From Microtetraspora malaysiensis (lineage in GTDB: Bacteria; Actinomycetota; Actinomycetes; Streptosporangiales; Streptosporangiaceae), in contig NZ_BBYJ01000024.1 of NCBI RefSeq assembly GCF_001528665.1, positions 200,093 to 264,092 on the forward strand: DNA of 64,000 bases, written 5' to 3'. Under the pieces are notes generated by a model that had not been told where the DNA came from, did not search any database, and was given only the letters and a program-made list of their open reading frames with translations. Of this stretch, positions 9,586 to 16,959 are shown piece by piece (position 1 is the stretch's first letter; each line of letters opens with the position of its first letter). The position numbers and the translations under genes are program-made.

Positions 9586-10020
9586 ATGGCCCGGCTGAGC
9601 GATTTCCTGCAGCGGTTCCGTCCTGCCGTGGTACCGGGCGCGGCGGCGCCGTCGGCGGTTCCGGCCGACTACGCCGCGGACCAGAGCGCCGAGCTCGACA
9701 TGGTCTTCTCCGCCCTCGCGGAAGTGCGGTCCGCGTGCGCCGCCGAGCGCTCCCGGGCGGAACGGCGCGCCGAGGAGATCCGGGAACAGGCCCGCGCCCA
9801 AGCCGCCGCCGTCATCTCGGCGGCCCGGCGGGCGGCCGAGACCGAGAGAGCACGGGCCTCGGCCGCCGCACTGCGAGAGGCCGACGAGGAGAGCCGGGCC
9901 GCCACCCGCGCCGCCGAGCGGGCCGCGGGCGATGTCCGCGCGCGGGCCGCGGCCCGGATACCGGACGAGGTGGCACGAATCGTCGCCCAGGTCAAGACGC
10001 TGGCCGGTGATCCGTCATGA
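9586..10020 (+). CDS. V/A-type ATPase peripheral-stalk subunit (H/G-like coiled coil)
   Basis: The protein has 144 residues. After a short N-terminus it is almost entirely Ala/Glu/Arg-rich heptads from about residue 40 to 125, a long single coiled coil like AhaH/subunit G of V/A-ATPases, which pairs with subunit E to form the stator. The identification depends on position: it is first in an operon with all other V-ATPase subunits. ATG 9586 follows GGAGG at 9576-9580; the upstream in-frame GTG at 9580 would overlap that site. The stop overlaps the next start (ATGA). Confidence 0.75.
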   Translation: MARLSDFLQRFRPAVVPGAAAPSAVPADYAADQSAELDMVFSALAEVRSACAAERSRAERRAEEIREQARAQAAAVISAARRAAETERARASAAALREADEESRAATRAAERAAGDVRARAAARIPDEVARIVAQVKTLAGDPS

Positions 10021-10928
10021 CCGCCGCCTGGGTCGCCGGATCGACGCGGGCCAGAACCCTGGCCCGCCGGGGGGTGGGCCGGGCCGCCGCCCGCCGAGTC
10101 GCGGCCTGCCCCTCGGCCGGCGAGGCGGTTTCCATGCTGGCCGGCACCCCCTACGGGCACGACGTACGGCGCGGCCAGAGCCTGGCCGAGGCCCAGTGGG
10201 CGGTGCTCGCCACGCTGCTGTGGCATCTGCGCGTGCTCGCCGGCTGGCTTCCCCGGGAGGGCGGGCAGGCGATCCGCGTCCTGGTCCGGTGGTTCGAGAT
10301 CGCCAACGTGGACGAGCTCATCTGCCGGCTGTCCGGTGTGCCCGCCGACCCCGAGTTCGTCCTCGGCTCGGCGGGTACGGCGTGGCCGCGCCTGCGGCGG
10401 TGCGCCTCGCTCGCCGAACTCCGGACGACGCTGGCCGCCTCCGCGTGGGGGGATCCGGGCGGCGCGGGCCGCCGGGAGATCCAGCTCGGCATGCGCGTCG
10501 CCTGGGCCGGGCGGGTCGCCGACGCGGTACCCGCCGCCCGCGCGTGGGTCCTGGGCGCGACGGCGCTGCTGGCCGCCCGCGAGCGGCACGCCGAGGCCCG
10601 TGACCTGCCGGTCGGGGTCCGGGAGCGCTGCCGGGCGCTGCTCGGCGCCGGGGCCGTCGAGGCGGTCTCACTCCCGGAGATGGCCGAGCGGCTGGCCCCG
10701 ACCGCCCGCTGGGCGCTGCGCGACATCGACGACCCCCTGCGCCTGTGGGAGGGCGAGGAACGCTGGTGGACGAGGGTCGAGGAGGACGGCCGCGACCTGC
10801 TCGCCGGCTCGGGGTTCTCCATGGGCCCTGTCCTGGGCGCCGCCGCCATGCTCGCCGCGGACGCCCGGCGGGTCCGCGCCGCGCTCGAACTCGCCGCGCG
10901 AGGTGGTGACCACGATGCCCTCGTCTGA
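10017..10928 (+). CDS. V/A-type ATPase subunit C (d/AC39 family)
   Basis: The protein has 303 residues, close to the family length. It is mainly helical, with an early [11 protein letters not shown] segment and later an [17 protein letters not shown] segment, the latter resembling the V-ATPase AC39/subunit C repeat that forms the funnel joining the central shaft to the c-ring. The sequence is divergent, so the operon context (between the stalk subunit and subunit I) is an important part of the evidence. It starts by a 4-base overlap with the previous stop. Confidence 0.75.
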
Positions 10929-10967
10929 CCTGGCCGCACGGCGGGGTTCGCGGGCGAGGCGGCGATC

Positions 10968-14954: not shown

Positions 14955-16348
14955 CGTCCTGGGCTCCGGTGGAGTACACCGACGTGGCGGAGCTGCGCGG
15001 CCCGCTGATCGTGGTCCGGGGCGTGCGCGGCGTCGGCTGGGACGAGTACGCGTCGATCGAGCTGGAGACGGGGCAGCGCAGGCACGGCCTGGTGCTGGAG
15101 GCCGACCGCGACCTGGCCGTCGTCCAGGTCTTCGAAGGGACCGCGGGGCTGCGGGCCGAGGGCATCCGGGTGGCCTTCGCCGGGTGCCCGCTCCGGATCC
15201 CGGTGGGCGCGGGCTGGCTGGGCAGGGTGTGCGACGGGCGCGGCCGGCCGCTGGACGGCGGGCCTCCCGTCTTCGGCACGGCCGACGCCGCGGTGACCGG
15301 CTTCCCGCTCAACCCGACCCGGCGCGAGCCTCCTTCCGAGCCCGTGCTCACGGGTGTGTCCGCCATCGACGCCCTCACCACGCTGGTCCGCGGGCAGAAG
15401 ATCGCCGTGTTCTCCTCCGGCGGCCTTCCCCATCTGGAGCTCGCCGCGCAGATCGCCGCGCAGGCCCACACCGACGGCACGCCGTTCAGCGTGGTCTTCG
15501 CCGCCATCGGGTTGACCCATGCCGACGCGGCGACCGTACGGGACACCTTGGAGGAGCGTTCGGCGGCCGGGGAGCTGACGCTGCTGCTCAATCTCGCCGA
15601 CGACCCGGTGATCGAGCGGGTGCTCACCCCGCGGCTCGCCCTGACCGTCGCCGAGCATCTCGCCTTCGTTCTGGGACGGCACGTCCTCGTGGTGCTGGCC
15701 GACATGACGAGCTACTGCGAGGCCCTGCGGGAGGTGTCCTCCGCGCGTGGTGAGATCCCGGCGCGGCGGGCGTACCCCGGCTATCTGTACAGCGATCTCG
15801 CCTCCCTGTACGAGCGGTGCGGGCGGGTGCCGGGCCTGCCCGGCTCGGTGACCGTGCTGCCGGTGCTCACCATGCCCGCGGGGGACATCACGCATCCGGT
15901 GCCCGACCTCACCGGATACATCACGGAGGGCCAGATCCTGCTGACCCGGGACGTCCCGGTCTATCCGCACATCGACCCGCTCTCCTCGCTGTCGCGGATG
16001 ATGCGGGCGGGAGTCGGGCCCGGCCGGACCCGGCCCGAGCACATGGATCTGGCCGCCCAGATCCTCGCCGCGCTGGCCCGGGCCCGGCAGGCGGCGGAGC
16101 TCGCCGAGATCGTCGGGGAGGGCGCGCTCGGCGACACCGACCGGCGCTATCTCGCCATGGCGGACGCGTTCACGCGGCGGCTGCTGGGCCAGCGGCGGGA
16201 CGAGGCGCGTTCCCTCGACGAGACCTTCGCGCGGGCCTGGAAGGTCGTCTCCGTGCTGCCCCGGCGGGAGCTCTCCATGCTGTCGCCGGCGGCGCTCGAC
16301 GCGGGATACCGGGAGGGGCTCGACGCGGGGCACCGGGAGGAGACGTGA
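14951..16348 (+). CDS. V/A-type ATPase regulatory subunit B
   Basis: The protein has 465 residues. VEYTDVAELRGPLIVVRGV opens the N-terminal barrel and PIPVG-like PLRIPVGAGWLGRVCDG follows. There is no Walker A Gly-Lys-Thr; the equivalent loop reads FSSGGLPHLELAAQI, as expected of the non-catalytic B subunit. Later segments include ADMTSYCEALREVSSA and GRVPGLPGSVT. It alternates with A in the catalytic hexamer. Overlapping stop/start junctions on both sides suggest tight stoichiometric translation with A and D. Confidence 0.96.
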   Translation: MTSWAPVEYTDVAELRGPLIVVRGVRGVGWDEYASIELETGQRRHGLVLEADRDLAVVQVFEGTAGLRAEGIRVAFAGCPLRIPVGAGWLGRVCDGRGRPLDGGPPVFGTADAAVTGFPLNPTRREPPSEPVLTGVSAIDALTTLVRGQKIAVFSSGGLPHLELAAQIAAQAHTDGTPFSVVFAAIGLTHADAATVRDTLEERSAAGELTLLLNLADDPVIERVLTPRLALTVAEHLAFVLGRHVLVVLADMTSYCEALREVSSARGEIPARRAYPGYLYSDLASLYERCGRVPGLPGSVTVLPVLTMPAGDITHPVPDLTGYITEGQILLTRDVPVYPHIDPLSSLSRMMRAGVGPGRTRPEHMDLAAQILAALARARQAAELAEIVGEGALGDTDRRYLAMADAFTRRLLGQRRDEARSLDETFARAWKVVSVLPRRELSMLSPAALDAGYREGLDAGHREET

Positions 16349-16959
16349 CGGTCAAGGTTCCGCCCGGACGCGCCGGTCGTCTGTGGCTCCGGCACCGCCT
16401 CGCCGCCCTGCGGCACGGGCTGGCCGTCCTCGACCGCAAGCGGCGCGTCCTGCGGCGGGAGCGGGACCGTCTCGTGCGGCTCGCGGCGCGTACCGGCGCG
16501 GAATGGGAGGCGGCGTGCCGGGAGGCCGACACCCGGCTGCTGCGCGCCTCGCTGCTGGGCGGCCGCCGGGCGATCCGGCTCGCCGGTGGCGGCCCGCTCG
16601 CCGAGGTGCGGGTGGAGTGGATCGACGCCATGGGGACGAGCTATCCGGGGAGGTCCGCCTTCGGCCCGCCCGCGCCGGTCGCGTCGCCTCCGCTCGCGGT
16701 CACGGCGGCGCTCGTCCCGGCCAGGGAGGCCTGCCTCGCCGCCCTGCGCGCCGGGGTCGAGCACGCGGTGGCCGCGGAGGCCGCGCGGATCGTCACCGCG
16801 GAGGAGGCGATGACCGGCCGGCGGATCCGGGCGCTGCGCGACGTCCTCCTCCCCCGTCTCGAGGAGGCGCTGGCCGCGGTGGAGCTGGCCCTCGACGAGA
16901 TGGAGCGAGCCGACGGCGCACGGGTCCGCCGTGCCCTGGCCCGCCGCCGAGACTCGTGA
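16345..16959 (+). CDS. V/A-type ATPase subunit D (central rotor shaft)
   Basis: The protein has 204 residues. The N-terminal PGRAGRLWLRHRLAALRHGL and a C-terminal helix from about 150 to 195 (RIRALRDVLLPRLEEALAAV) form the long antiparallel coiled coil of subunit D, which rotates inside the A3B3 ring. GTG 16345 overlaps the stop of B (GTGA). This is the last gene of the operon; 208 bases separate it from the hydrogenase genes, enough for a new promoter. Confidence 0.9.
   Translation: MTVKVPPGRAGRLWLRHRLAALRHGLAVLDRKRRVLRRERDRLVRLAARTGAEWEAACREADTRLLRASLLGGRRAIRLAGGGPLAEVRVEWIDAMGTSYPGRSAFGPPAPVASPPLAVTAALVPAREACLAALRAGVEHAVAAEAARIVTAEEAMTGRRIRALRDVLLPRLEEALAAVELALDEMERADGARVRRALARRRDS

Follow-up and report, generated by a model that had tools for sequence, protein, structure and literature searches.

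A second rotary ATPase in Microtetraspora malaysiensis: a compact V/A-type enzyme of an apparently old actinomycete lineage, predicted to be proton-coupled and probably serving energy-poor cells

The 64,000-nucleotide stretch of the Microtetraspora malaysiensis genome analysed here (contig NZ_BBYJ01000024.1, positions 200,093 to 264,092; hereafter the window) carries nine plus-strand V/A-type ATPase genes at positions 9586–16959, in the order G-C-I-K-F-E-A-B-D (Table 1). All nine frames are open, and neighbouring genes overlap by at most 37 bp or are separated by gaps of at most 39 bp. An earlier note on this DNA had described a complete V/A-type operon, and its outer coordinates fit the start of G and the stop of D. 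It had also described a catalytic A subunit with a GGFGTGKT motif and a B subunit without a P-loop; both descriptions hold, as A contains the P-loop GGFGTGKT and a GER motif, and B has SSGGLPHLE at the position of A's P-loop. Its subunit list stands for the nine genes but not for the stator pair, which is one G and one E rather than two stator subunits besides E. A search for F1Fo genes found a complete eight-gene operon on another contig (C4; the V operon is on C24) of the same 8.82 Mb genome. The V/A-type enzyme is, as had been proposed, a second rotary ATPase beside an F-type enzyme.

The identities of A, B, D, I and K are clear from single-sequence searches (Pfam and NCBIfam). As single sequences, C, E and F lie under the Pfam cut-offs and G has no Pfam V-type match; the profiles for G, E and F were built from 13 or 14 homologues each. 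For the structural model of C (predicted local distance difference test (pLDDT) 93), the top Foldseek match is Thermus subunit C (1v9m; E = 6e-6, template-modelling (TM) score 0.58, root-mean-square deviation 6.8), and eukaryotic subunit d ranks behind it. A second correction to the earlier note concerns subunit C (AC39, eukaryotic d), which is part of the rotor (PMC5758568; here and below, statements from cited papers draw on the available portions of their text). The operon thus encodes the parts that characterize a V/A-type enzyme: (i) a catalytic A and a B without a P-loop; (ii) the shaft subunits D and F with the adaptor C; (iii) the stalk subunits E and G; and (iv) K with a carrier Glu and the channel subunit I with a conserved Arg.

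Table 1. Features of the V/A-ATPase operon and its flanks (window positions)
Feature	Position	Strand	Evidence
G, peripheral-stalk subunit, 144 amino acids, conserved N-terminal extension	9586..10020	+	profile to Thermus G, E = 2e-5; alignment A4
C (AC39, eukaryotic d), rotor adaptor	10017..10928	+	Pfam AC39 E = 0.0019, below cut-off; model pLDDT 93
I (a), stator channel subunit, 428 amino acids, shortened cytosolic arm	10968..12254	+	Pfam 3.2e-17; NtpI profile 4e-30
K (c), ring subunit, one hairpin, Glu97	12218..12562	+	Pfam 2.4e-16; 79-row alignment
F, central shaft, short (70 amino acids)	12569..12781	+	Pfam 0.0021, below cut-off; profile to Pyrococcus F 3e-4
E, peripheral-stalk subunit	12778..13290	+	Pfam 0.0073, below cut-off; profile to Thermus E 8e-7
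A, catalytic subunit	13278..14954	+	NCBIfam 5e-171; PDB Thermus A 1e-143
B, non-catalytic subunit	14951..16348	+	NCBIfam 7e-171; PDB E. hirae B 5e-133
D, central shaft	16345..16959	+	Pfam 2.6e-23
HydB, HydG, HydD, HydA and maturation protease; neighbouring operon, distinct from the ATPase	17168..21577	+	NCBIfam sulfhydrogenase models
DevR/DosR-like core GGACTTTTGGCC, candidate site before the hydrogenase	17074..17087	+	promoter scan
Upstream element containing TTTCGGACATATTCAAG	9485..9509	+	three-sequence alignment with M. fusca and M. glauca; M. fusca copy displaced

Subunit K is a hairpin that follows an N-terminal hydrophobic segment. Its carrier Glu97 is invariant (79/79 rows), and so are Val68, Gly98 and Ile99, which stand at the places of Gln32, Ser66 and Thr67, the Na+ ligands of Ilyobacter, in an alignment made by eye. 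By a published rule, the carrier Glu of a Na+ enzyme is accompanied by Gln, Ser/Thr and one more polar ligand (PMC2359735). Because Val68, Gly98 and Ile99 replace the Na+ ligands, the signature of K is that of H+ rather than Na+, and under this rule the enzyme is predicted to be an H+ enzyme; on the same residues we reject the candidate of a Na+ pump, i.e. a Na+-translocating V-ATPase. The earlier suggestion of 'proton or sodium pumping' is in this way narrowed to protons. On the stator side, the conserved Arg of subunit I has a channel role, and Arg330 and Arg385 are invariant in 14/14 rows. In many Streptomyces (L101 1098–1517 and relatives) gene calling gives K a longer open frame, with about 138 amino acids and an extra N-terminal hydrophobic stretch.

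We inspected 66 neighbourhoods of the operon, defined as the named loci with more than 15 kb of called genes. Counts are raw and come without matched control neighbourhoods; gene kinds were set by one Pfam-tested representative per cluster, and hydrogenases by similarity to the window genes. At least one of seven dormancy-type kinds of genes (i.e. Usp, CBS-type, P-type ATPase, nitroreductase, NAPRTase, Hsp20 and hydrogenase) is present in 54/66 neighbourhoods. Usp genes occur in 47 of them, and Pfam assigns each of the five Usp cluster representatives to Usp; CBS-type proteins occur in 31/66 and P-type ATPases in 14/66. At the genome level, at least 8 of 20 genomes have a Usp gene no more than 15 kb from the V operon, where about 1.6 are expected (p = 3e-4). 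CBS, NAPRTase and P-type ATPase genes are members of the OsdR/DevR regulon. Usp, nitroreductase and heat-shock genes are likewise members (PMC5069765). Near the V operon of Streptomyces (L098 4218–4892 and eight related loci), a LuxR-type response regulator recurs that seems to begin with part of a CBS domain.

The promoters were scanned for sites of this regulon. Enrichment of the pattern GGGMCN4GKCCC, with at most one mismatch, is only moderate across all loci (27/52 V promoters vs 443/2080 shuffles and 169/531 other promoters), so a matrix built from 15 published S. coelicolor OsdR sites (PMC5069765) was used with a threshold of at least 10 bits. Matrix sites are present in 16/21 V promoters of the Streptomycetaceae vs 3/60 singleton genes (p = 5e-10), and also, in that family, in 15/36 Usp promoters and 40/140 other conserved neighbours. 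Fifteen of the 16 sites lie 89–138 bp before the start of the V operon, as do many published sites. Upstream of the V operon, the window, M. fusca and M. glauca have TTTCGGACATATT(C/T)AAG in common. At 7435–9474 of the window, an EmrB-type MFS efflux gene is divergent from a TetR-type regulator, which is on the strand of the V operon and stops 111 bp short of it.

Judged by its sequence, the operon that follows is an NAD(P)-linked [NiFe] hydrogenase, which we take to be of 'group 3b'. The four subunits of the HydBGDA type and the nickel motifs RICGIC and DPCISC are present, and the Hyd proteins match the NCBIfam sulfhydrogenase models below their equivalog cut-offs. HydA is present in 21/34 V-positive genomes of the family vs 62/250 overall (8.4 expected; Fisher p = 7e-7, uncorrected for relatedness), and in 8 of these 21, with six genus codes, no more than 25 kb separates it from the V operon (G000, G117, G212, G031, G188, G151, G175 and G092). 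Hydrogenase genes occur in 8/66 neighbourhoods, including those of Nocardia, Rhodococcus and Saccharopolyspora. Seven hydrogenase loci were scanned for DevR/DosR-like promoter cores: M. glauca has GGACCTTCGTCC at the place of the window's GGACTTTTGGCC, the cores of L045 and L091 are weaker and only that of L091 stands at the window's position, and L184, L046 and L084 have no such core. Both GGACTTTTGGCC and GGACCTTCGTCC are near the DosR consensus GGGACTTNNGNCCCT (PMC6448022). Group 3b hydrogenases together with a Na+ V-type enzyme have been described from a single-cell genome that belongs to a different actinobacterial class (PMC7325909). Beyond the hydrogenase operon, on the opposite strand, the window contains a cytochrome b561-type (Ni_hydr_CYTB) membrane protein (22743–23384).

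We read the operon as an auxiliary H+-coupled V/A rotary ATPase of an old actinomycete lineage, most likely for energy-poor, hypoxic or dormant cells, and consider this reading probable, if far from certain. The role under energy limitation that had been suggested earlier fits the dormancy and hypoxia gene context. By homology, A3B3 would turn the D-F shaft, the C adaptor and the K ring, with one Glu per hairpin, and this rotor would turn against subunit I, held by the E-G stalk(s). If the complex is assembled and expressed in M. malaysiensis when respiration has stalled, ATP-driven proton export would maintain the proton-motive force, and the neighbouring NAD(P)-linked [NiFe] hydrogenase may dispose of reductant in the same state. 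Proton export is our first choice of direction because F1Fo would cover ATP synthesis by respiration and is, in mycobacteria, a poor ATP hydrolase; ATP synthesis at low force by the same reversible machine is the second. If the tie to dormancy is true, the upkeep of proton-motive force in non-growing aerobic actinomycetes becomes directly testable in the Streptomyces that bear the operon.

Several observations weigh against a tie to dormancy or hypoxia. Twelve of the 66 neighbourhoods have none of the seven kinds of genes: seven are from the Streptosporangiaceae, and the other five from Arthrobacter (two), Phycicoccus, Nocardia (one) and Streptomyces (one). No Usp gene is on the window's contig among the matches listed, and the genome tallies ignore kinship between genomes. 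The 21 Streptomycetaceae promoters are likewise related rather than independent, six of them sharing the same 16 bases, and outside this family the OsdR matrix reveals no enrichment (3/31 vs 6/143, p = 0.2). The upstream site found in the Streptomycetaceae operons is missing from the window's V promoter, which has no OsdR/DevR-type site by two core patterns, GGGMCN4GKCCC or the OsdR matrix (best score 3.4 bits).

The main rival for the role is a low-force ATP synthase that would mainly make ATP, via a higher H+/ATP ratio, at a proton-motive force that does not suffice for F1Fo. Its single-hairpin K with its own carrier Glu resembles that of the ATP-making Thermus enzyme, which has a c12 ring (PMC5758568). 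However, the count of 12 is that of the Thermus ring, and direction is not readable from sequence; we regard a synthase as a real possibility, but not the likely one. A stress-, pH- or ion-linked pump with no special tie to oxygen, controlling ions or pH jointly with the P-type cation ATPase and the CBS-domain proteins encoded nearby, is unlikely. The above counts of P-type ATPase and CBS-type neighbours speak for such a pump, as does the P-type ATPase beside V-type genes of other lineages (Rubrobacter and Pseudonocardia plasmids), whereas the OsdR-type sites and the Usp, nitroreductase and Hsp20 neighbours of the Streptomycetaceae speak against it.

The lineage of the enzyme was traced mainly through subunits A and B. 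Relatives of A were sought in GTDB genome contigs, and the best 80 of 218 (L036–L115) come from the Streptosporangiaceae, Streptomycetaceae, Mycobacteriaceae, Nocardiaceae, Pseudonocardiaceae, Micrococcaceae and others; the closest are those of Microtetraspora fusca (96% identical) and M. glauca (95%). Presence is patchy. Subunit D (PF01813) is found in 34/250 genomes of the same family, 33 of them above the cut-off, and the B protein in 14/345 genomes of the class at E ≤ 1e-90 (13/127 genera), one of these matches (G822, 50% identity) being probably of another type. In the phylum sample, PF01813 is present in 93/396 genomes, all of them, the M. malaysiensis genome aside, in other classes, where the matches are mostly much stronger D subunits.

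Both trees are quick ones with support only from the Shimodaira–Hasegawa-like approximate likelihood ratio test (SH-aLRT). In the A tree (81 rows; L163, L166 and L171 omitted as short), the 58 clade rows form one side of a branch with 100% support and a stem of 0.8 changes per column. They comprise 57 rows from the class and L174, a genome coded to another class whose copy lies on a 3.2 kb contig, so that contamination is possible. Outside the clade are Thermus, Pyrococcus, Clostridia, Enterococcus, Fusobacterium, Parabacteroides and genomes of other classes, as well as Rubrobacter with a Pseudonocardia plasmid. The tree tool flagged long branches meeting at the clade stem (L167), which leaves the clade's sister unsure. 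In the A+B tree (84 rows, 5 of them unassigned to a group), 15 changes account for the family labels, against a minimum of 12 and a shuffled mean of 39.9. The 35 rows of the Streptomycetaceae, two of which are plasmids, form one clade, and the window, M. fusca and M. glauca group together (support 93). Rows of the Mycobacteriaceae and Nocardiaceae are scattered in this tree, and Nonomuraea rows stand in two places in the A tree. Four plasmid records of Streptomyces/Embleya (0.9–3.1 Mb) carry the operon. Since presence is patchy and plasmid records exist, transfers within the class are likely; the enzyme appears to be of long standing in the class, for the most part retained along with the families, and subject to frequent loss or local transfer.

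The earlier note had suggested horizontal acquisition, and had itself named placement in a widespread, vertically inherited actinobacterial lineage as the outcome that would remove the novelty. This is largely what we find: A and A+B form one actinomycete clade that largely follows taxonomy, and on both trees we reject the candidate of a recent transfer from outside the class. A recent acquisition from Clostridia, Thermus or Archaea, which the patchy presence and the plasmid records might favour, is very unlikely given the single clade on a long stem, the largely coherent family labels, nearest kin of the same family and an operon G+C as high as, or higher than, that of the remainder of the window; for this organism it is already largely refuted.

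The clade differs from known V/A-ATPases in its stator. Subunit I, with starts estimated for the clade, has 399–541 amino acids (78 clade rows) vs 563–672 in 18 comparators counted from the first Met of the open frame (L155 and L171, cut by the stretch end, were left out). The region before the first channel motif has 119–201 amino acids (median 173; 71 clade rows, the 7 of 78 without the motif being dropped) vs 297–389 in the five uncut comparators that have the motif. The match of the clade I profile to E. hirae NtpI (E = 4e-30) starts only at NtpI residue 278, and a second match, not significant alone, pairs the clade start with NtpI residues 5–51. The near lobe would then have retained both its ends, and the coiled coil and far tip would have been lost. 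The AlphaFold model of I forms a compact alpha/beta lobe at residues 11–90 and is poor elsewhere (pLDDT 69, predicted TM score (pTM) 0.42), with TM-scores to known a subunits of 0.36–0.43 (top 20). The claim of a shortened arm rests on the alignments because the model has low confidence except at residues 11–90.

In G, 11 of the 15 invariant columns of the alignment (A4), including the start Met, fall within the first 37 residues, before the coiled coil. The match to Thermus G starts at position 41 of the clade G profile, and proteins at the G position in four comparators have 102–114 amino acids vs 144 here. The shortening of the I arm and the extension of G may belong together.

F-type enzymes have one peripheral stalk. 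EG stalks number two in Thermus and three in yeast (PMC5758568), and in Thermus the N-terminal region of I carries both, one of them at its tip (PMC5758568, PMC6131620). A full collar of this kind, in which two EG stalks are anchored on the N-terminal arm of I, is not found here, as the arm is shortened. We treat collar size as a trait of the known examples and not as a condition of membership, so the operon is a variant V/A-ATPase. A bolder proposal, which we put forward tentatively and with more doubt than conviction, is that it represents a new structural class of V/A-ATPase, with a single or differently anchored stalk, and serves actinomycetes as a rotary ATPase dedicated to their dormancy programme. 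In such a class, I would lack the collar coiled coil and tip, and G would have gained a conserved N-terminal anchor. A literature search, with subscription journals mostly outside its coverage, found no published account of the clade, the short collar or a dormancy link. A collar roughly halved while A3B3 and the ring are kept would be a natural test of what the V/A motor needs of its stator. That the operon is instead decaying or non-functional, as the short F and I and the weak single-sequence matches of C, E, F and G could hint, is the least credible explanation of all, given that the short forms are common to the whole clade, the carrier Glu is invariant in all K rows, Arg330 and Arg385 in all 14 aligned I rows, and all nine frames are open.

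Some other features were recorded. On the minus strand of the window, 29681–33164 holds a row of genes for a UBP zinc-finger protein, a histidine kinase that contains a cyclic-nucleotide-binding domain, and a fusion of a response regulator with a flavin adenine dinucleotide (FAD) oxidoreductase. The only predicted tRNA (Leu, gag; 55977–56069) lies inside a frame (55826–56284) that encodes a MaoC-like dehydratase (Pfam), and is probably a false call. On plasmids of Streptomyces (L146 15857–20594), Pseudonocardia (L147 8567–15176) and Rubrobacter (L148 6603–13167), which represent three separate V lineages of the phylum, a P-type cation ATPase stands beside V-type genes. The Pseudonocardia plasmid (58 kb) has V-type F, A and B beside an integrase (8567–12311), and within the 19.5 kb shown none of D, I, K, E and C is annotated; this would be either a headpiece fragment or a different machine.

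Comparison with known systems places the operon as follows. A/V-type genes have been noted in passing in other actinomycete genomes, as a gained pathway or KEGG module, in Melissospora conviva (PMC12451618) and Nocardia seriolae (PMC5336288); in their available portions these accounts share with ours the presence of such genes but contain no lineage, architecture or dormancy link. The operon shares its kinds of neighbour genes and the promoter sites of the Streptomycetaceae with the OsdR (Streptomyces)/DevR (Mycobacterium) regulon; a term search found no mention of ATPase in the text of the OsdR regulon paper (PMC5069765), and no ATPase or hydrogenase terms in that of PMC13284343. V/A-ATPases from other classes of the phylum (the Rubrobacter plasmid and L155–L173) are of the same enzyme type, but they have A subunits only 39–47% identical (25 comparators matched over A), a full-length I, another gene order and a place in another clade. 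The Na+ V-ATPase of Enterococcus hirae provides the best PDB matches for B and I, but K lacks the Na+ ligands here and NtpI has a full arm. The V/A-ATPase of Thermus thermophilus has the same nine subunit types and a single-hairpin ring subunit, and its A, C, E and G are the best or near-best PDB matches to those of the operon. The enzyme described here differs from it in an I arm about half as long, a G with an N-terminal extension and a short F, and its operon stands beside F1Fo and belongs to a separate clade.

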